In this document: piece by piece, positions 1,672-11,082 of the stretch
How the letters are laid out: each line of letters starts with the position of its first letter
Numbering within the stretch: the first letter of the stretch is position 1
Assembly (NCBI GenBank): GCA_021203665.1
Contig: JAJQAT010000148.1
Coordinates: forward strand, 1 to 33,979
Source of the DNA: Bacillota bacterium
GTDB taxonomy: Bacteria; Bacillota; Clostridia; UBA1381
Reading direction: 5' to 3'
DNA length: 33,979 bases
The notes under the pieces: model-generated
Databases searched by the model: none
What the model was told of the DNA's origin: nothing
What the model saw: only the letters and a program-made list of their open reading frames with translations
Translations under genes and position numbers: made by a program

Positions 1672-2418
1672 TCAACAATTCCGCATTACCCCCATCAGCT
1701 CCCATTTTGACGCGGTGTTTGTTTTTCTGAAGATATTCTGCAAATGCTTTTGGACGGTATTGCGGCTTACGTCAATCATTTCGGCAATTTCATCATTGCT
1801 TTTATATTCCAAAACAAAGCTCAAAATTTCCGTTTCACGCGGGGTTAAATCGAATTTTTCGCAAAATTCGGATACGTCCGCGCGGACAGCTCCGTCCGAA
1901 TTATACAGCCGGTTCATAACCTTGTTAAGGTGCTGCCCCAATGCGCGCAGGTAAAACAGCTCGCTTTCGTCAAACGCGCCGTCGGTCTTTGTTCTGAAAA
2001 GCGTTAAAACGCCGAGCAGCCGCTCATTGTATACAATGCTGTATTGAATGTTGTCGTATATGTGATACTTTTTGTAGCAGCGTATATATATCGGGTCGCC
2101 GAGCCGCATCTCATCGGAACGGAGGTCGCTGTCACGAACGAGCGTCGGCTCCTTGCTGAGCGCGAGCCATAGGAGGTCGTCCTTGTCGGCGCAGCGAATA
2201 TACTCCTCCTCAGCCTCCGCAAAGCCGGCGGGATAACACATCGGCGCACCGAATATCACGCCGCCCTCCGACATTTCCGCGGGCATAATGCTCGCGTAGC
2301 TGAACGGAACAAGCATCTTAAGCCTCGGCAGAAAATTATTTTTTAAGTCCTCCTTTGTCTCGGCGGAGTACAGCTCATATACAACCGTGTTAAATATCAG
2401 AAAATCGTTTTTATACAT
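1672..2418 (-). CDS. LuxR-family transcriptional regulator
   Basis: The 248-residue protein carries a C-terminal LuxR/GerE helix-turn-helix at about residues 190-240 (LTPRETEIL, then SNDEIAEMIDVSRNTVQKHL). The N-terminal 170 residues resemble a GAF-like sensor fold but show no motif I can name, so the ligand is unknown. A GGAGG site 5 bases before the ATG supports the start. It is divergent from the putrescine/GABA operon and separated from it by a spacer with two dyads. It is therefore the obvious candidate regulator of that operon and probably of itself. That role is inferred from position. It lacks a receiver domain, so it is unlikely to be a phosphorylated response regulator. Confidence 0.88.
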   Translation of the reverse strand: MYKNDFLIFNTVVYELYSAETKEDLKNNFLPRLKMLVPFSYASIMPAEMSEGGVIFGAPMCYPAGFAEAEEEYIRCADKDDLLWLALSKEPTLVRDSDLRSDEMRLGDPIYIRCYKKYHIYDNIQYSIVYNERLLGVLTLFRTKTDGAFDESELFYLRALGQHLNKVMNRLYNSDGAVRADVSEFCEKFDLTPRETEILSFVLEYKSNDEIAEMIDVSRNTVQKHLQNIFRKTNTASKWELMGVMRNC

Positions 2419-2583: not shown

Positions 2584-2612
2584 ATCATAGCACATCATAT
2601 ACTTAAAATCAA
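2584..2612 (-). promoter_or_regulatory. Promoter of the LuxR-type regulator gene
   Basis: On the minus strand TTGATT (2607-2612) and TATGAT (2584-2589) are separated by exactly 17 bases, a good sigma-70-type match. The -35 box lies inside the first dyad of the spacer, so a regulator bound there would block the gene's own promoter. Confidence 0.6.
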
Positions 2613-2637
2613 GTATATATACTCAAAAATCGGTATA
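2598..2637. promoter_or_regulatory. Tandem dyad operator between regulator and putrescine operon
   Basis: Two abutting 20-base elements, 2598-2617 and 2618-2637, share the form TATACT-N8-RGTATA. The first extends to a perfect ATATACTT-N6-AAGTATAT palindrome. Dyads of about 20 bases are typical of LuxR-family sites. They end 19 bases before the operon -35 box, a position suited to activation, and the first overlaps the regulator's own -35 box. Binding by the adjacent LuxR-type protein is inferred. Confidence 0.6.
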
Positions 2638-2656
2638 AATTTCTATAATTTAATAA

Positions 2657-2685
2657 TTGAAATTAAGAATAGAAGGCGGTATAAT
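2657..2685 (+). promoter_or_regulatory. Promoter of the putrescine/GABA operon
   Basis: TTGAAA (2657-2662) and a perfect TATAAT (2680-2685) are spaced by 17 bases. Transcription would begin near 2692, leaving a leader of roughly 85 bases before the first gene. Confidence 0.7.
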
Positions 2686-2710
2686 ACAGCTATAAACAGA
2701 GATGAAATAC

Positions 2711-2751
2711 AAAGGCGTATTCGCGGCATTGTCACGAGTACGCCTTTTTTA
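2711..2751 (+). terminator. Terminator-like hairpin in the operon leader (possible attenuator)
   Basis: AAAGGCGTA (2711-2719) pairs perfectly with TACGCCTTT (2739-2747). Four more pairs, one a G-U wobble, extend the stem inward to an 11-base loop, and TTTTTT follows. It lies between the promoter and the first gene, so it should end most transcripts unless something prevents it. The leader before it is only about 20 bases, too short for a known riboswitch aptamer. A protein antiterminator or a small RNA are alternatives. Confidence 0.65.
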
Positions 2752-2778
2752 TCTCAAAAATGAAAGGAAGCAAGAAAA

Positions 2779-4155
2779 ATGACTGATAAGGAAAAGGTAT
2801 TAAAGGACGTAAACAAAATTATAACTCTGATTAAAACGGACCGCAAGGACATTTCCGCGGAGGATAAAAAGATGATTGTCGAGGACACTCTCGACCATTT
2901 CAACAACTATGTAAGCCCGGGTTGGCTCAAGTACAGAAAGTCGGTTTCCTCCGACTCCGAGAACGGCGCGGTTGTGGAATGGACGGACGAGGGTGCTTAT
3001 TGCTACGGCTTAAACGGCGAAAGCGAAAAGTTTATCGACTGCCTCGGCGGATTCGGCATCTACACCTGCGGACACAGAAATCCGGAAATCCTCGAAACGG
3101 TAAAGGCGCAGCTTGACCACCAGGCACTCCATTCTCAGGAGCTTTTGGACCCGCTGAGAGGCTATCTTGCAAAGGCTGTCGCGGATATAACTCCGGGCAA
3201 TCTGCAATACTGCTTCTTCACCAACGGCGGCGCGGAGGCGGTTGAAATGGCGCTAAAGCTGGCGCGTATCGCAACCGGCGGACGCTGGTACATATCGACT
3301 GTCGGCGCGTTCCACGGAAAATCGATGGGCGCTATTTCAATGGGCGGCAAGGGCACATACAGAACGCCTTACGCTCCGATGGTTCAACAGGTTCAGCACG
3401 TACAGTACGGCGTCGCGGAGGACGTGAGAAAGGCTATCGTGAATTTACAGGCGGTAGGCGAAAAGGTCGCGGCTGTTATCCTTGAGCCGATTCAGGGCGA
3501 GGCGGGAGTTATTGTTCCGCCGGAGGGATATTTGAAGGAGGTAAGAGAAATCTGCGACGAAACCGGCGTAGCTCTTATATTCGACGAAATTCAAACCGGT
3601 ATGGGCAGAACCGGCACAATGTGGAGATGCGAGGCGGAGGGCGTCACGCCGGATATTATGACGTTCGGCAAGGCGTTCGGCGGCGGCATAATGCCGATTA
3701 CGGGCATCATATGCGACCCCAAGATGTGGACGCAGGACCTTATCGACAATCCGTGGCTTTTAGGCTCGCCCACGTTCGGCGGAAATCCGGTATGCTGTTC
3801 GGCGGCGCTTGCGACAATCAAGTATATGCTTGAAAACGACATTCCGGGCGTATGTAAGAGAAAGGGCGAAATCCTTAAAGCGGGACTTGAAAAGATGGCG
3901 GCGAAATATCCCGAGATTATTCAGGAGGTACGCGGAACGGGACTTATGCTTGCGGTTGAGTTCCACACCTGCGATTTGGGCTACGAAACGGCAAAGGGAC
4001 TTTTCGCAAGACGCGTTATGACCGCCGGTACACTTGTAAACGCCAAAACGATAAGATTTGAGCCTACCGCCGTCATCTCCGAGCAGGATATAGCGGACGT
4101 AATTTCACGTATGGACGAGGCTCTTGCTGACACAAAAAAGGCAATGGGAGTTTGA
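2779..4155 (+). CDS. patA: Putrescine aminotransferase
   Basis: A class III PLP aminotransferase of 458 residues, the length of E. coli PatA/YgjG (459). It shares with that enzyme VSPGWLKYRKSV-type, EFIDCLGGFGIYxxGHRNP-type, LHSQELLDPLR, GAFHGKSxGA, EPIQGEAGVI and QTGMGRTG segments. The PLP lysine is K298 in TFGKAFGGG, and the partner-subunit phosphate motif is SPTFGGNP. The reaction moves an amino group from putrescine to a 2-oxo acid, giving 4-aminobutanal (cyclising to 1-pyrroline) in the cytosol. AAAGGAAG precedes the ATG. It is the first gene of the operon. Cadaverine could be a second substrate. Confidence 0.92.
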   Translation: MTDKEKVLKDVNKIITLIKTDRKDISAEDKKMIVEDTLDHFNNYVSPGWLKYRKSVSSDSENGAVVEWTDEGAYCYGLNGESEKFIDCLGGFGIYTCGHRNPEILETVKAQLDHQALHSQELLDPLRGYLAKAVADITPGNLQYCFFTNGGAEAVEMALKLARIATGGRWYISTVGAFHGKSMGAISMGGKGTYRTPYAPMVQQVQHVQYGVAEDVRKAIVNLQAVGEKVAAVILEPIQGEAGVIVPPEGYLKEVREICDETGVALIFDEIQTGMGRTGTMWRCEAEGVTPDIMTFGKAFGGGIMPITGIICDPKMWTQDLIDNPWLLGSPTFGGNPVCCSAALATIKYMLENDIPGVCKRKGEILKAGLEKMAAKYPEIIQEVRGTGLMLAVEFHTCDLGYETAKGLFARRVMTAGTLVNAKTIRFEPTAVISEQDIADVISRMDEALADTKKAMGV

Positions 4156-4185
4156 TATTAATTTGATATAAAGGAGGATATGACT

Positions 4186-5667
4186 ATGGAACCGAAAAAA
4201 ATGTACATAAACGGCGAATGGGTCGAGGGCAGCTCCGGCAAAACCACAAGCGCGGTAAATCCCGCGAACGGCGAGGTGCTTGCCGAGATTACCTTGGGAA
4301 CCGTCGAGGACGCACGCAAAGCAATAGCGGCGGCAAAGGAATCCTTTTATACAACGCGCGAATGGCGCGATATGGATTCTCAAACGCGCGGAGATTATAT
4401 TCTGAAAATCGCCGACGCGATTGACGCGGAGCGCGATGAATTCGCGAGAATAGACAGTATGGATCACGGCAAGCCGTTAAGAGAGGCGGAGTGCGACGTT
4501 GACGACGCGATTCACACCTTCAGATATTACGCGAGCCTTATCAAAGCGCCCTACGGCGGCGTTTACGATGTAAACGAGGGCTTCGGAAAGATGCACTCCT
4601 TTACGGTGCATGAGCCTGTCGGAGTATGCGGACTTATCACACCGTGGAATTATCCCCTGCTTATGGGCGTATGGAAGCTTGCGCCGGCTCTTGCCGCGGG
4701 CAACAGCGTTGTGTATAAGCCAAGCTCAAACTGCGTGCTTTCGAGCATAAAGCTTTTTGAAATATTTGAAAAGGTCGGCTTGCCCAAAGGCTGCGCGAAC
4801 CTTGTATTGGGTCCCGGCGGAACCATAGGCAACGAGCTTGCCGAAAACAACGATGTGGATATGGTTACGTTTACGGGTTCGACCGAGGTCGGACAGAGCA
4901 TTATGCGCGCTGCGGCGGGCAACGTAAAGAAGATAGGTCTTGAGCTGGGCGGCAAATCGCCGAACGTAATCTTTGCCGACGCCGATATTGAGGGCGCGGT
5001 TGAATGGGCAATGATTGGAATTTTCTTAAATCAAGGCGAGATATGCTCCGCCGGCTCGAGAATTATTATAGAGGAAAGTATAAAGGACAAATTCGTTAAG
5101 CGGCTTGCGGAGCGCGCGAACGCGATAACGATAGGCAATCCGCTCGACAACCCCGATATGGGACCGCTTGTGTCGGAGAGCCATATGAATAAGGTGCTTT
5201 CGTACATCAAAAAGGGTATCGACGAGGGCGCGGCGCTTGTATGCGGCGGCGAAAGATATACCGAGGGCGAATGCGCAAAGGGATATTATGTGCGCCCGAC
5301 CGTGTTTGACAACTGCACGGACGATATGACTATTGTAAAAGAGGAGATTTTCGGACCCGTAGTAACCGTTCAGACCTTTAAGACCGAGCAAGAGGCTATC
5401 GATATGGCGAATAATACCGAATACGGACTTGCCGGCGCGGTATTCACCGCGGACGGAGCGAGGGCGCTTAGGGTTATCAAGGAAATCAGAGCCGGAATTA
5501 CGTGGATAAACTGCTATAATCCCTGCTTTAACGAGGCTCCCTGGGGCGGCTATAAAAAGTCCGGCATAGGCAGAGAGCTTGGCGTGCACGGCTTGGAGGA
5601 ATACCAGGAGATTAAGCAAATTAATATCAACCTCAATCCCGGAATTGTCGGCTGGTACGAGCATTGA
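4186..5667 (+). CDS. Aldehyde dehydrogenase, probably 4-aminobutyraldehyde dehydrogenase
   Basis: An NAD(P)-dependent aldehyde dehydrogenase of the betaine-aldehyde type. The TPWNYPL motif, the FTGSTEVG cofactor loop, catalytic E253 (ELGGKSPN) and nucleophile C287 (GEICSAGSR) are all present. The usual GQxC reads GEIC here. The track start at 4180 leaves only 2 bases after GGAGG, whereas the ATG at 4186 leaves 8 and is preferred (493 residues). Betaine and aminoaldehyde dehydrogenases are hard to separate by sequence. Its place between a putrescine aminotransferase and a 4-hydroxybutyrate dehydrogenase argues for oxidation of 4-aminobutanal to GABA. It starts 30 bases after patA. Confidence 0.85.
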   Translation: MEPKKMYINGEWVEGSSGKTTSAVNPANGEVLAEITLGTVEDARKAIAAAKESFYTTREWRDMDSQTRGDYILKIADAIDAERDEFARIDSMDHGKPLREAECDVDDAIHTFRYYASLIKAPYGGVYDVNEGFGKMHSFTVHEPVGVCGLITPWNYPLLMGVWKLAPALAAGNSVVYKPSSNCVLSSIKLFEIFEKVGLPKGCANLVLGPGGTIGNELAENNDVDMVTFTGSTEVGQSIMRAAAGNVKKIGLELGGKSPNVIFADADIEGAVEWAMIGIFLNQGEICSAGSRIIIEESIKDKFVKRLAERANAITIGNPLDNPDMGPLVSESHMNKVLSYIKKGIDEGAALVCGGERYTEGECAKGYYVRPTVFDNCTDDMTIVKEEIFGPVVTVQTFKTEQEAIDMANNTEYGLAGAVFTADGARALRVIKEIRAGITWINCYNPCFNEAPWGGYKKSGIGRELGVHGLEEYQEIKQININLNPGIVGWYEH

Positions 5668-5681
5668 TGGGAGTGTTGGAA

Positions 5682-6794
5682 ATGAAACAATTCAGTATCG
5701 CGCCGAAGATAATAACGCTTGATTCCTGCGGCGAATTCATAGATAAATTGGGCATAAACGAGAATGACCTTGTTATCACGATAGAGGTTACGTGGAGCGC
5801 GTATTTTAAAGGCATTAAAGCCGGAACGGTAATTTTCATCGAGAATTACGGCTCGGGCGAGCCGACCGATGAAATGATTACGAGAATAGCCGCGGACATA
5901 AAAAAGCCGTACAAGCGCGTCATAGCGATTGGCGGCGGAACGGTTATAGACTGCGCAAAGCTGTTCGCACTCGAAACGCTTTTACCCGTTACGGATTTGT
6001 TCGACAGGAAAATTCCGGCTGTAAGGGACAAGGAGCTGATTCTTGTTCCCACGACCTGCGGAACAGGCTCGGAGGTAACGAACATATCGATTTTGGAGTT
6101 TAAAAAACGGCATACAAAATTTGGTCTTGCCTCTGATGCGCTGTATGCCGACGCGGCGGTGATAGTGCCGGAGCTGCTTTATAAGCTGCCGTTTAAGGTA
6201 TTCGCCGCAAGCTCGATAGACGCGCTTGTACATTCGGTTGAAAGCTATCTTTCGCCGAAAGCCGCGCCGATTTCAAGAATGTTTTCGCTTAAGGCAATGA
6301 CGATGATTTTAAACGGCTACAAAAAAATCGAATCGGACGGCAAGGACGCGCTTAAAGCACTTCTCCCCGACTTCTGCCTTGCGTCGACTATGGCGGGAAT
6401 CGCTTTCGGCAATGCCGGCTGCGCCGCGGTTCACGCGATGAGCTATCCGCTCGGTGCGGCGTTCCATGTTCCGCACGGCGAATCGAATTACGCAATGTTC
6501 ACTGGCGTGTTCAAAAAATATATGGAAATAAACCCCGACGGCGCGATAAGGGAGCTTAACGCCGCCATAGCCGCCGTTCTCGGCTGCGGCGCGGAAGATG
6601 TGTATGACGAGCTTGAGCGCCTGCTTAACGGCTCGATTTTGCAGAAAAAGCGGTTAAGCGAGTACGGTATGACAAATGAAATGATTGAGGAATTTACCGA
6701 TTCCGTTATCGAAAACCAACAGAGGCTGCTCGGGAATAATTATGTTTTTCTTGACAGAGCGGCGCTCATTGAAATATACACTAAACTTATGTAA
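5682..6794 (+). CDS. 4hbD: 4-hydroxybutyrate dehydrogenase (iron-containing alcohol dehydrogenase)
   Basis: A group III iron-dependent alcohol dehydrogenase. It has the GGGTVID nucleotide-binding motif, PTTCGTGSEVTN, and metal-ligand region histidines in DALVHSVE, AVHAMSYPLG and HVPHGESN. From memory it aligns almost end to end with Clostridium kluyveri 4HbD, including IVPTTCGTGSEVTN-type, KRRHTKxGxASDxLYA and ADSVIExQQRLL-type stretches. It should reduce succinate semialdehyde to 4-hydroxybutyrate with NADH. The track start is a TTG at 5664, but the ATG at 5682 has GGGAG 8 bases upstream, matches the family's MK... start and gives 370 residues. A start at 5667 overlapping the previous stop (TGATG) is the alternative. 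Confidence 0.88.
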   Translation: MKQFSIAPKIITLDSCGEFIDKLGINENDLVITIEVTWSAYFKGIKAGTVIFIENYGSGEPTDEMITRIAADIKKPYKRVIAIGGGTVIDCAKLFALETLLPVTDLFDRKIPAVRDKELILVPTTCGTGSEVTNISILEFKKRHTKFGLASDALYADAAVIVPELLYKLPFKVFAASSIDALVHSVESYLSPKAAPISRMFSLKAMTMILNGYKKIESDGKDALKALLPDFCLASTMAGIAFGNAGCAAVHAMSYPLGAAFHVPHGESNYAMFTGVFKKYMEINPDGAIRELNAAIAAVLGCGAEDVYDELERLLNGSILQKKRLSEYGMTNEMIEEFTDSVIENQQRLLGNNYVFLDRAALIEIYTKLM

Positions 6795-6806: not shown

Positions 6807-8180
6807 ATGTCAGATTTAAGAACAGCCCTGCCGCAAATAAAAACCAAAACCCTGCCGGGACCGAACGCGCAAAGCATCATAGACCGCCGCGTCAAGGCGA
6901 TTCCGAACGCGATTCGCTGCGGCTATCCGTTAGCCGTAAAGCGCGGCGAGGGAGCTATGATTGAGGACGTTGACGGGAATATTTTCCTTGATTGGGTTGG
7001 CGGAGTAGGCGTGCTGAACGTCGGCTACTCTCAGCCGAAAATGATTGAGGCGGTCAAGGCTCAGGCGGATAAATATTTTCACGTTATGATGAATATCGGC
7101 ACACATGAGGGCTATGTCGCGCTTGCCGAGGAAATGAACAAAATCGTTCCCGTAAGGGGCGAAACCAAGAAAACTATGTTTGTAAATTCCGGCGCGGAGG
7201 CGGACGAAAACGCCGTGAAAATCGCCAAGGGATATACAAAGCGTCCGAATATAATCGTATTTTCCGGCGCGTTCCACGGCAGAACGCAAATGACTATGGC
7301 GATGACGTCCAAGAAAGCGTATGCCTACGGTATGGGACCGTTCCCCGACGGCGTTTACCGCGCGGAATTTCCGTATTTGTACCGTGCGCCAAAGGGATTT
7401 ACGGAGGACGAGGCAATCGAGTATTACATAAAGCGTCTTAACGACGTTTTCGAGGAATGCAGCGCGCCCGACTATGTTGCCGCAATCGTCGCAGAGCCTA
7501 TCCAGGGCGAGGGCGGATTTGTTCCCGCGCCGATTGAATGGGTTAAGGCTGTAAGGAAAATCTGCGACAAGCACGGAATACTTTTGGTTGCCGACGAGGT
7601 TCAGACGGGTTTCGCGCGCTCGGGTAAAATGTTTGTTTCGCAGTATTGGAAGGACGCGGGTTGCTCGCCGGATATTATGACGTCGGCGAAATCCATCGCC
7701 GCCGGTATGCCGCTTTCGGCGGTCACCGCATCGGCGGAGATTATGGACGCGTGTCCCGCGGGAACAATCGGCGGCACGTTCTGCGGCAACGCGATGAGCT
7801 GCGCGGCGGGACTGGAGGTTATTAAATTCATCAAGGAAAACAACCTCTGCGACAGGGCACTTAAAATAGGCGGCAGAGTTATGGAATATTACCGTGAGGA
7901 GCTTAAGCCGTTCGGAGTTGTCGGCGACGTGCGCGGAATTGGCGCGTTCGTCGGACTGGAGCTTGTAAAGGATACCGAAACAAAGGAACCGTATCCGGAG
8001 CTTGTCGCGGCTATGGTAAAGAGAGCGGCGCAAAAGGGACTTATTATAGAGAGCGCCGGAACATACGGAAATGTTATCCGTTTCCTATGCCCGCTTGTAG
8101 TTACCGATGAGCAGCTTGAGGCGGGACTTGCAATTATGAAAGAAACAATGGCGGAAAGCCTTGAGGAATTAAATGGCTGA
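6807..8180 (+). CDS. gabT: 4-aminobutyrate aminotransferase
   Basis: A second class III PLP aminotransferase, 457 residues, clearly distinct from the operon's first gene. Motifs include FVNSGAEADENAVKIAK, FSGAFHGRT, EPIQGEGGF, ADEVQTGFARSGK, the PLP lysine K295 in MTSAKSIAAG, and GGTFCGNAMSCAA. GabT-type enzymes convert GABA plus 2-oxoglutarate to succinate semialdehyde plus glutamate. The product is the substrate of the 4-hydroxybutyrate dehydrogenase encoded just upstream. AAAGGAG precedes the ATG, and the gap to 4hbD is 12 bases. A related omega-amino acid such as 5-aminovalerate is a possible alternative substrate. It is the last gene before a terminator. Confidence 0.88.
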   Translation: MSDLRTALPQIKTKTLPGPNAQSIIDRRVKAIPNAIRCGYPLAVKRGEGAMIEDVDGNIFLDWVGGVGVLNVGYSQPKMIEAVKAQADKYFHVMMNIGTHEGYVALAEEMNKIVPVRGETKKTMFVNSGAEADENAVKIAKGYTKRPNIIVFSGAFHGRTQMTMAMTSKKAYAYGMGPFPDGVYRAEFPYLYRAPKGFTEDEAIEYYIKRLNDVFEECSAPDYVAAIVAEPIQGEGGFVPAPIEWVKAVRKICDKHGILLVADEVQTGFARSGKMFVSQYWKDAGCSPDIMTSAKSIAAGMPLSAVTASAEIMDACPAGTIGGTFCGNAMSCAAGLEVIKFIKENNLCDRALKIGGRVMEYYREELKPFGVVGDVRGIGAFVGLELVKDTETKEPYPELVAAMVKRAAQKGLIIESAGTYGNVIRFLCPLVVTDEQLEAGLAIMKETMAESLEELNG

Positions 8181-8316: not shown

Positions 8317-10437
8317 ATGACAGACGCGGAGCAGAAGCGGGCGGCAAAGGAATTTGCCGAATATTGGCGCGGCAAGGGCTACGAAAAGGGCGAAAGTCAA
8401 AAATTTTGGCTGTCGCTTTTGCGCGATATTTTGGGAGTGGAGTATCCGGAGCGGTTTATATCGTTTGAGGATCAGGTGCATTTGGATCACACGAGCTTTA
8501 TCGACGGCTATATCGACGCGACAAAGGTGCTTATCGAGCAAAAGGGGCTCGGAAAGGACCTGCGCAAGGGCATAAAACAATCTGACGGCTCCGTGCTGTC
8601 GCCATTTCAACAGGCGAAGCGCTATTCGGCGGACTTGCCTTATTCAAAGCGCCCGCGCTGGATTGTAACCTGCAATTTCGAGCAGTTTTTGATTTACGAT
8701 ATGGAGAAACCGACGGGTGAGCCGGAGAGTATAATGCTTTCGGAGCTGCCGCGCGAATATTACAGGCTGAAATTTTTGACCGACACCGGCAGCGACAGTC
8801 TGCGGCGGGAAATGGAAATATCAATCGCCGCGGGCGATATAATCGGTCGGATATACGACGCGTTTTTAAAGCAATACGCGAATCCCGATGACGCGGAAAC
8901 GCTCAAAAGCCTTAACGTCCTTTGCGTGCGGCTTGTGTTCTGCCTTTACGCGGAGGACGCGGGTATTTTCGGCGGACGCATGATGTTCCACGATTACCTT
9001 GCAGACTTTGAAACGCGCCATATGCGGACGGCGCTTATTGAGCTGTTTAAAATTTTGGACACCAAGCCCGAAAACCGCGACCCATACGGCGATGAAAAAT
9101 TAAACGCGTTCCCCTACGTCAACGGCGGCTTATTTTCGGACGAGAGCGTTATTATCCCGCGCATAACAGAGGAAATACGCGAGCTTATTTTGACGCACGC
9201 GAGTGCGGATTTTGACTGGAGCGAGATAAGTCCCACGATTTTCGGCGCGGTGTTTGAAAGCACCCTAAACCCCGAAACGCGGCGCGGCGGCGGTATGCAC
9301 TACACGTCAATCGAAAACATTCACAAGGTGATAGACCCGTTATTCCTTGACGATTTGACGGCAGAGCTGGAGGATATAAAGCGCGAGAGCGTGATAAAAA
9401 CGCGTGAAAAAAGGCTTGACGCATTTTGCGGCAAGCTGTCGACACTCGGATTTTTAGACCCCGCGTGCGGGTCGGGAAATTTCCTTACGGAGACATATTT
9501 ATCGCTTAGACGGCTTGAGAATGAGGCTTTAAAGATTAAAACAAACCAAATAACAATGCTTGACGATGTTGTGATAAGGGTGTCAATCGGGCAATTTTAC
9601 GGAATTGAGATAAACGATTTTGCGGTGACGGTCGCGAAAACCGCGCTTTGGATTGCCGAGTCGCAAATGCTAAAGGAAACCGAGGATATAATTCACGCGA
9701 GCCTTGATTTCCTCCCGCTCAAATCCTACGCGAATATAGTCGAGGGTAACGCGCTGAGGCTTGATTGGGAAGCGGTTGCGCCGAAGTATAAGCTGTCATA
9801 TATAATGGGCAATCCGCCGTTTGTCGGATATTCCTTGCAGACGAAAGGGCAAAAAGCCGACATTTTGTCCGTTTATATTGATGAAAAGGGCAAGCCGTAC
9901 AAAAGTGCGGGAAAAATAGACTATGTTGCAGGTTGGTATTTCAAAGCTGCAAGCCTTATTAAAGGCACAAAAATACGAGCGGCGTTTGTTTCGACAAACT
10001 CAATAACACAAGGCGAACAGGTTGCGGGAGTATGGAAACCGCTTTATGAACGTTTCGGAATACATATAGATTTCGCGCACCGCACATTCAGGTGGGACAG
10101 CGAAGCAAATATAAAAGCTCATGTTCATTGCGTGATTGTCGGATTCAGCTGTGGCGCTGGCATTGAACAAGGTCGATTATATGAAAACGACAGAGTACAG
10201 CTTGTAGATAATATTAACGCGTACTTAATGGACGCACCGGATATATTTATTAATACACGCTCAAAACCGATTTCAAATGTTCCCGAAATGGCAAAAGGTA
10301 GTATTCCTGTAGATAACGGAAATTTCTTTATAACCAAAGAAGAATATCCGGAATTTATAAAAATTGAACCAACAGCAAAAAAATATATAAAAAAATTTTA
10401 CGGTGCGCGAGAATTTTTGCACAATGAAGAACGCTAG
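8317..10437 (+). CDS. MmeI-like type IIL restriction-methylation protein, N-terminal part (ends at in-frame amber)
   Basis: The frame encodes the endonuclease, spacer and methyltransferase parts of an MmeI-like single-chain restriction enzyme. The N-terminal nuclease motif is D63 followed by E74-Q-K76 (D-X10-EXK type). The adenine methyltransferase part has motif I DPACGSGNF at 381-389 and motif IV NPPF at 499-502. The target-recognition region begins near residue 600. GGGAGG lies 8 bases before the ATG. The reading ends at TAG after residue 706, but the same frame continues with family sequence to 11082 (921 positions, the usual size). In relatives as I remember them the motif reads RWCLWL, so TAG replaces the Trp codon. 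The product alone would lack most of the recognition domain. Its promoter is intact. Confidence 0.85.
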   Translation: MTDAEQKRAAKEFAEYWRGKGYEKGESQKFWLSLLRDILGVEYPERFISFEDQVHLDHTSFIDGYIDATKVLIEQKGLGKDLRKGIKQSDGSVLSPFQQAKRYSADLPYSKRPRWIVTCNFEQFLIYDMEKPTGEPESIMLSELPREYYRLKFLTDTGSDSLRREMEISIAAGDIIGRIYDAFLKQYANPDDAETLKSLNVLCVRLVFCLYAEDAGIFGGRMMFHDYLADFETRHMRTALIELFKILDTKPENRDPYGDEKLNAFPYVNGGLFSDESVIIPRITEEIRELILTHASADFDWSEISPTIFGAVFESTLNPETRRGGGMHYTSIENIHKVIDPLFLDDLTAELEDIKRESVIKTREKRLDAFCGKLSTLGFLDPACGSGNFLTETYLSLRRLENEALKIKTNQITMLDDVVIRVSIGQFYGIEINDFAVTVAKTALWIAESQMLKETEDIIHASLDFLPLKSYANIVEGNALRLDWEAVAPKYKLSYIMGNPPFVGYSLQTKGQKADILSVYIDEKGKPYKSAGKIDYVAGWYFKAASLIKGTKIRAAFVSTNSITQGEQVAGVWKPLYERFGIHIDFAHRTFRWDSEANIKAHVHCVIVGFSCGAGIEQGRLYENDRVQLVDNINAYLMDAPDIFINTRSKPISNVPEMAKGSIPVDNGNFFITKEEYPEFIKIEPTAKKYIKKFYGAREFLHNEER
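10435..10437 (+). other. In-frame amber codon interrupting the restriction-methylation gene
   Basis: The sequence reads GAACGC-TAG-TGTCTATGG, in the frame set by the ATG at 8317. One base change (TGG to TAG) would restore the expected Arg-Trp-Cys-Leu-Trp motif. TAG is a genuine stop elsewhere in the window (mgtE, mnaA and pheT all end in it), so the genome is not recoded for amber. Confidence 0.8.
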
Positions 10438-10446
10438 TGTCTATGG

Positions 10447-11082
10447 TTGTTAAATGCAACTCCAAGTGACTTAAAATCAATGCCGCACGTTCTACAAAGA
10501 ATAAAGAATATACGTGAATTTAGACAAAATAGCACTAAAGCTGCAACAAGAAAATTTGCCGATTATCCTACTCGTTTTATGGAAATCAGACAACCATCAT
10601 CTGACTATATTCTTGTTCCCTCTCACTCATCGGAAAACAGGAAATATTTGCCCATCGGGTTTGAAAATGCAGATGTTATTTGTGGCAATGCAAATTTGTT
10701 AATCCCCAACGCCACACTGTACCATTTTGGCGTACTGACATCCAACGTTCATATGGCGTGGATGCGCGCGGTTTGCGGTAGATTGGAAATGCGGTATCGC
10801 TATTCCAACACTATTGTCTACAACAACTTTCCGTGGTGCAGTCCGACGGACGAGCAGAGGAAAAGGATTGAGCGAACGGCGCAGAGTATTCTTGACGCGC
10901 GGGCATTATACCCCGACAGCTCACTCGCCGACCTTTACGATGAGCTGACCATGCCGCCCGAATTGCGGAAGGCGCACCAAAACAACGACCGTGCGGTAAT
11001 GGAGGCATACGGCTTTGACGTGAAAACCACAACGGAAACAAGCTGCGCGGCGGCACTAATGAGAATATACCGCGAGATGTGA
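10447..11082 (+). CDS. MmeI-like protein, C-terminal part (remnant after the amber codon)
   Basis: This ORF is the direct in-frame continuation of the upstream one. It carries the rest of the target-recognition domain and the C-terminal helical domain. Conserved family segments include RKFADYPTRFMEIRQP, NATLYHFGVLTSNVHMAWMRAVCGR and YSNTIVYNNFPW. The listed TTG start has no ribosome binding site, so independent translation is doubtful. It would be made only by readthrough, or not at all. I interpret both pieces as one damaged or conditionally read gene. Confidence 0.75.
   Translation: MLNATPSDLKSMPHVLQRIKNIREFRQNSTKAATRKFADYPTRFMEIRQPSSDYILVPSHSSENRKYLPIGFENADVICGNANLLIPNATLYHFGVLTSNVHMAWMRAVCGRLEMRYRYSNTIVYNNFPWCSPTDEQRKRIERTAQSILDARALYPDSSLADLYDELTMPPELRKAHQNNDRAVMEAYGFDVKTTTETSCAAALMRIYREM

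Follow-up and report, generated by a model that had tools for sequence, protein, structure and literature searches.

Among the nitrogen compounds that matter in the gut and in other anaerobic communities are putrescine and agmatine, and the literature searched describes no regulator of the clostridial putrescine/agmatine pathway. AguR of Enterococcus faecalis is a LuxR-like protein encoded divergently to an agmatine/putrescine operon, and it activates both that operon and its own promoter (PMC3796520). Two other kinds of system bear on the locus considered here. Binding sites of the NarL type have a 7-2-7 frame (PMC4549865, PMC2718512), of which the engineered NarL site TACCCCTAAAGGGGTA is an example (PMC4549865). 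The typical target of an ANTAR protein consists of two hairpins with A1/G4 hexaloops (PMC3369931).

The window (the whole stretch of 33,979 bases that was analyzed) belongs to a clostridial MAG and contains a LuxR-type gene divergent to the pat operon:

1672..2418, minus strand: luxR1, a 248-aa regulator with a GAF-like N-terminal domain and a C-terminal GerE domain
2779..4155, plus strand: patA, putrescine aminotransferase (NCBIfam NF008570, 675.3 bits against a cut-off of 612)
4180..5667, plus strand: aldehyde dehydrogenase, probably for 4-aminobutyraldehyde (below equivalog cut-offs)
5664..6794, plus strand: iron-containing alcohol dehydrogenase, a possible 4-hydroxybutyrate dehydrogenase (below cut-off)
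6807..8180, plus strand: second class-III aminotransferase, 4-aminobutyrate aminotransferase-like (below equivalog cut-off)

Among the operon genes, patA alone exceeds a curated equivalog cut-off (its score with a second model, TIGR03372, is 487, under the cut-off of 659), and the activities of the other operon members are assigned from family and context. The operon is flanked at 8317-11082 by an MmeI-like restriction-methylation gene whose target recognition domain is broken by a stop codon in frame (10435-10437); the halves on either side of the stop both match MmeI domains. Just downstream of luxR1, at 1496-1665, 42-nt inverted repeats (93% complementary) surround two smaller hairpins, an element that is either MITE-like or terminator-rich.

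The GerE domain of LuxR1 is clear (PF00196, 47.3 bits against a cut-off of 23.5, E=1.6e-12). In the AlphaFold model of the protein (mean pLDDT 84, pTM 0.67), the N-terminal domain resembles 3o5y (TM(target) 0.73), which was also found by profile match, while Pfam GAF hits LuxR1 only below its cut-off. As modeled, then, the sensor domain is GAF-like and not a receiver. A search of LuxR1 for PF03472, the autoinducer-binding domain of quorum-sensing LuxR proteins, gave no match up to E 0.1. It looks soluble, in contrast to lactococcal AguR, which is membrane-bound.

The tandem dyads and the predicted promoters

The preliminary description reported the pattern TATACT-N8-RGTATA twice, end to end, and both copies are indeed present: TATACTTAAAATCAAGTATA at 2598-2617 directly abuts TATACTCAAAAATCGGTATA at 2618-2637. 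Exact matches occur in the window at these two places only, and the exact 20-mer pattern is confined to this locus in the whole of the genome's own 2.16-Mb assembly. With up to two mismatches allowed, the window has 10 matches, against 2.9 +/- 1.9 expected. The combined pattern TACT-N8-AGTA-N4-TACT-N8-RGTA occurs without mismatch once in the assembly, here, and shuffling the 360-bp spacer 20,000 times with dinucleotides preserved never produced the tandem pair (a single site came up in 0.9% of cases). The pair is thus beyond chance at the scale of window, assembly and spacer.

The 20-base unit itself stands only in part. Conservation is limited to the central 16 bases, TACT-N8-RGTA; the related sites described below do not keep the flanking TA. 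The dyads are therefore better read as two 16-bp TAC-N10-GTA sites, shown here with the elements around them (all promoters and transcription starts are predictions):

2584..2612, minus strand: predicted luxR1 promoter, TTGATT-N17-TATGAT with extended -10 (TG), conserved in G015 and G467, with a start expected near 2577
2600..2615, no strand assigned: predicted operator site 1, TACTTAAAATCAAGTA, 7-2-7 type, within the first dyad, resting on pattern counts and shuffles
2620..2635, no strand assigned: predicted operator site 2, TACTCAAAAATCGGTA, 7-2-7 type, within the second dyad
2638..2656, plus strand: A/T-rich stretch from site 2 to the -35 box, 84% identical between the own genome (G000) and G467
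2657..2685, plus strand: predicted pat operon promoter, TTGAAA-N17-TATAAT, conserved in G015 and G467, with a start predicted near 2692

Two other ways of framing the repeats were tried and dropped. A Lux box (20-bp, 7-6-7) does not suit the agu and pot sites, which are without outer TA pairs, and a palindrome centered on the junction, AAGTATATATACTT, suits the pat sites and the agu pair of G467 but not the single pot sites.

The centers of sites 1 and 2 are 20 bp apart. The luxR1 -35 box (2612..2607, minus strand) lies inside site 1, as had been claimed, and does so in 3/3 genomes, all of which keep the promoter form TTGATT-N17-TATRAT. To place the dyads just upstream of the operon's -35 box was likewise fair, the second ending 19 bp from it. 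Measured from the 16-bp site, the -35 box of pat is exactly 21 bp away in each of G000, G015 and G467, and site 2 is centered at about -64.5 relative to the predicted start. At the pot promoter the distance is exactly 22 bp in six genomes (G000, G015, G467, G025, G022 and G178, the promoter match being weak in G178). The aguB site is more distant, its separation from the -35 box being about 58-59 bp by manual count. Thus pat and pot both have a site in the fixed position, near -60 to -65 and upstream of the predicted -35 box, that is expected for a class I activator. The near-equal spacing in sequences that are otherwise different argues for an upstream activator near -65 at these two promoters. 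The A/T-rich bases that separate the -35 box from site 2 may form an UP-element/alpha-CTD region.

Recurrence of the sites and their conservation

In G015 and G467, one contig carries luxR2, PII-potABCD and aguB-aguA beside the luxR1/patA locus. The products of aguB-aguA convert agmatine to putrescine, and potABCD serves uptake. TAC-N10-GTA sites are found also in the luxR2/aguB spacer (own genome, G015 and G467) and at the luxR2/PII junction (the same six genomes as above):

C186:21318, own genome: luxR2/aguB site TACTACTTTTTGAGTA
C186:20443, own genome: pot site TACTCCTTTTGGAGTA, overlapping the last luxR2 codons
G467: luxR2/aguB pair TAATTAAAAAGAAGTA and TACTTAAAAAGAAGTA, two copies, again 20 bp apart
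G467: PII-pot site TACTTAAAAGGGAGTA
G025 and G022: PII-pot site TACTACTTTTGGAGTA
G178, of a different family: PII-pot site TACTCCTTTCGGAGTA

Among 12 non-redundant sites, TACT and AGTA are near-invariant and the center is W-rich. The own 2.16-Mb assembly has 18 exact TACT-N8-AGTA sites, 3 of them at polyamine promoters; six others that were inspected lie in genes, terminators, repeats or further places, none of them linked to polyamines. The spacers of LuxR3-type relatives (G014, G415) have no clear dyad. The comparison makes a well-supported case that the motif marks a small polyamine regulon, consisting of pat, luxR2/aguB and PII-pot, and the regulatory design is a fairly ordinary one.

Some features of these neighborhoods may be recorded here. 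More than one clostridial family has a PII-family gene at the head of potABCD, with the gene for a LuxR-type regulator as neighbor (L040 11949-13184, G000 C186; L032/L033, L048, L034, L037). A third branch of the LuxR family stands beside urea carboxylase genes (checked in L039, G014) and UAAP-type proteins, and its locus in G415 (L038) has in addition two PII-like genes and an ABC transporter. In the own assembly, aguB extends for about 30 codons at a contig end and then gives way to unrelated sequence (L040 end, G000 C186 21.4-21.6 kb), and aguA was not found in that assembly (84% complete); G015 differs in both respects.

LuxR2 is a paralogue of LuxR1 within the same cluster, 24-30% identical to it. 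The two differ at positions aligned with the base-contacting residues of NarL, yet the motif is common to their promoters, and either paralogue may be the binder at a given site.

An intact luxR1/patA pair occurs in two further genomes, G015 (L024) and G467 (L025), whose LuxR1 proteins are 96% and 72% identical to that of the own genome; together with the own genome they represent two independent lineages (n=2). No further intact pair turned up in the family, in the order, in a sample of the class or in the order to which G271 belongs. G271 itself (L035 7509-8863) has a decayed pair, in which what is left of luxR1 and patA stands back to back and has lost the 5' end of each gene together with the entire operator spacer, and G134 has an orphan luxR1 relative, beside which no dyad was seen. 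In both lineages the dyads accompany the gene pair, so the refuting case named in the preliminary description, loss of the dyads beside a conserved pair, is not seen. Between G000 and G467 the spacer is 82% identical over the dyads and 84% from there to the -35 box; identity is lower directly upstream (53%) and in the leader (55%). Conservation of both dyads has to be qualified, however: site 2 of G467, TACTTAAAGGCAGGTA, has both arms intact, while site 1, TGCTTAAAATCAAGTA, keeps the operon-side arm but has TGCT instead of TACT in the arm toward luxR1. No luxR1 was found in G025 and G022; there the pat genes lie about 10 bp behind potD and so have no operator of their own. Separate tandem operators at pat are confined to the two lineages in which a luxR1 diverges from patA.

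The leader of patA

Between the predicted start and patA lie two overlapping hairpins, overlooked in the preliminary description, which suggest a second layer of control:

2706..2721, plus strand: small hairpin AAUAC-[AAAGGC]-GUAUU with A1 and G4 in the hexaloop (ANTAR P2-like); GAUAC-[AAGGGU]-GUAUU in G467
2711..2753, plus strand: intrinsic-terminator-like hairpin with U-run in the patA 5' leader, z about -6.8

The 5' arm of the terminator-like hairpin overlaps the hexaloop hairpin. All three genomes keep 13/13 of its pairs, with one compensatory change; as this change was equaled in 163/500 shuffles and only three sequences are available, covariation is weak support. The leaders of PII-pot, luxR2 and urea carboxylase have similar A1/G4 hairpins, and glnA leaders of the same family have a hairpin (GAGC-AAAGGU-GUUU) over a terminator, the same design. 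Of 135 terminator-like hairpins in the DNA examined, 14 are accompanied by a hexaloop hairpin of at least 4 bp, and 9 of these belong to leaders of the nitrogen genes just named (by manual classification, and including several orthologues). Exactly one ANTAR protein is encoded in each of seven genomes tested (7/7), after glnA in five.

The patA leader therefore has the hexaloop hairpin overlapping an intrinsic terminator that is characteristic of ANTAR targets, but it has a single one, no second hexaloop hairpin being found in it, and lacking the dual hairpin it is not assigned to that group. Its mode of action may resemble that of an ANTAR-type attenuator. A leader peptide over 2702-2779 was considered and rejected (the frame is not conserved, and G467 has no ATG), and an Rfam search of the window, L024 and L025 matched no known riboswitch. 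G467 has a further A1/G4 hexaloop and terminator hairpin between patA and the aldehyde dehydrogenase gene (L048 around 2158), not seen in the window.

Proposed control and comparison with known systems

It is very probable that LuxR-type regulators bind the two palindromes; that these serve as operators through which such regulators activate polyamine genes has strong support from position and recurrence. I consider it quite probable that dimers of a one-component GAF-GerE activator use the pair as tandem operators, and the divergent luxR1 is the most likely gene for this activator. One dimer bound at site 2 and another 20 bp upstream would occupy the same face of the DNA, about two turns apart, and would aid RNA polymerase in starting transcription of the pat operon, leading from putrescine to GABA and onwards. 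Simultaneously, the dimer on site 1 would limit transcription of luxR1. The same regulon would take in aguBA and PII-potABCD by way of the 16-bp site beside luxR2. After initiation, the leader would probably add nitrogen-linked attenuation through the ANTAR protein encoded after glnA.

The preliminary description had one protein switching on the operon and limiting its own synthesis. A regulator with a GerE domain and the fixed distance from site 2 to the -35 box agree with the former, and activation of the pat operon is likely. The notion of one protein lacks support as put, since the motif common to the luxR2/aguB and PII-pot promoters implies a shared regulon in which LuxR1, LuxR2 or both may bind. 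The -35 box conserved inside site 1 makes repression of luxR1 plausible; the degraded half-site in G467 makes it weaker as a conserved trait, and the behavior of AguR, which raises its own promoter, cautions against assuming it.

That the pat sites are bound mainly by LuxR2 as a general polyamine activator, or by LuxR1 and LuxR2 in competition, with LuxR1 merely modulating, is somewhat unlikely. LuxR2 is more widespread than LuxR1 and adjoins PII-pot with the same motif in several lineages, and G025 and G022 appear to run the entire pathway with LuxR2 alone, but the tandem operators occur at pat only with a divergent luxR1. Slightly less probable still is a protein that activates both promoters, with site 1 auxiliary and its overlap with the -35 box tolerated. 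AguR, whose own promoter activity rises with agmatine (PMC3796520), offers a precedent and the weak luxR1-proximal half-site of G467 would fit; against this, site 1 is centered near -30 of the luxR1 promoter, in the polymerase footprint, where bound proteins normally repress, and the -35 box is conserved exactly within it.

Control of the operon might instead be mainly post-initiation, by leader terminator and ANTAR antiterminator, with the dyads a minor input. The conserved terminator overlapped by an A1/G4 hexaloop, the like design of glnA leaders and the single ANTAR protein per genome, beside glnA in most, speak for this, but the hairpin here is one where a typical target has two (PMC3369931) and the operators are left unexplained, so I regard it as unlikely. 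It is very improbable that the repeats are A/T-rich promoter debris, overlapping -10-like TATACT/AGTATA hexamers with no dedicated regulator site. TATACT does resemble a -10 box, the spacer is A/T-rich, and promoter-like matches in the region number 9 against 4.1 in shuffles; nevertheless, the tandem is absent from the 20,000 shuffles, its arms are conserved, its geometry is fixed, and the motif recurs at two other polyamine promoters.

To return to the tandem operators, the analysis yields a defined 16-bp candidate operator, a regulon of three promoters with two possible regulators, and a candidate checkpoint for nitrogen, with possible use as a polyamine-responsive promoter. Only tentatively do I suggest that the whole is a previously undescribed clostridial polyamine regulon under two stacked controls: GAF-GerE sensors of a polyamine or breakdown product acting on NarL-like operators in tandem, and a minimal ANTAR-type leader that has a single hairpin and ties these operons to the glnA-linked nitrogen regulator.

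Each part has its counterpart among known systems. Like the sites bound by GerE dimers in NarL/NarP, the predicted sites are inverted TAC....GTA heptamers 2 bp apart, and the pot site TACTCCTTTTGGAGTA has few differences in 16 positions from the engineered NarL site TACCCCTAAAGGGGTA. Against the NarL 7-2-7 consensus (TACYYMT-like heptamers; arrangement and example site from PMC4549865), all sites match at 10-13 of 14 specified positions, the pat sites, which share the arrangement, at 11/14 and 12/14; for the agu and pot sites this is partly circular, as the scan that listed them used the same consensus. The differences are the tandem sites at 20-bp spacing, a GAF-like domain in place of a phosphorylated receiver, and polyamine rather than nitrate genes. 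LuxR proteins of the SdiA/CviR/QscR type and LuxR solos share with LuxR1 the layout of N-terminal ligand domain and GerE domain and are its best full-length fold matches, but identity is 15-20%, there is no hit to the autoinducer-binding Pfam domain, and the N-terminal domain is nearer to GAF 3o5y. The leader resembles those of the ANTAR systems EutV and NasR (PMC3369931) in having an A1/G4 hexaloop that overlaps a leader terminator before nitrogen genes, and differs in its one small hairpin in place of the dual hairpin. The nearest studied analogue is AguR, likewise a LuxR-like regulator encoded divergently to a polyamine operon, though with other genes in another order and with its own promoter activated.
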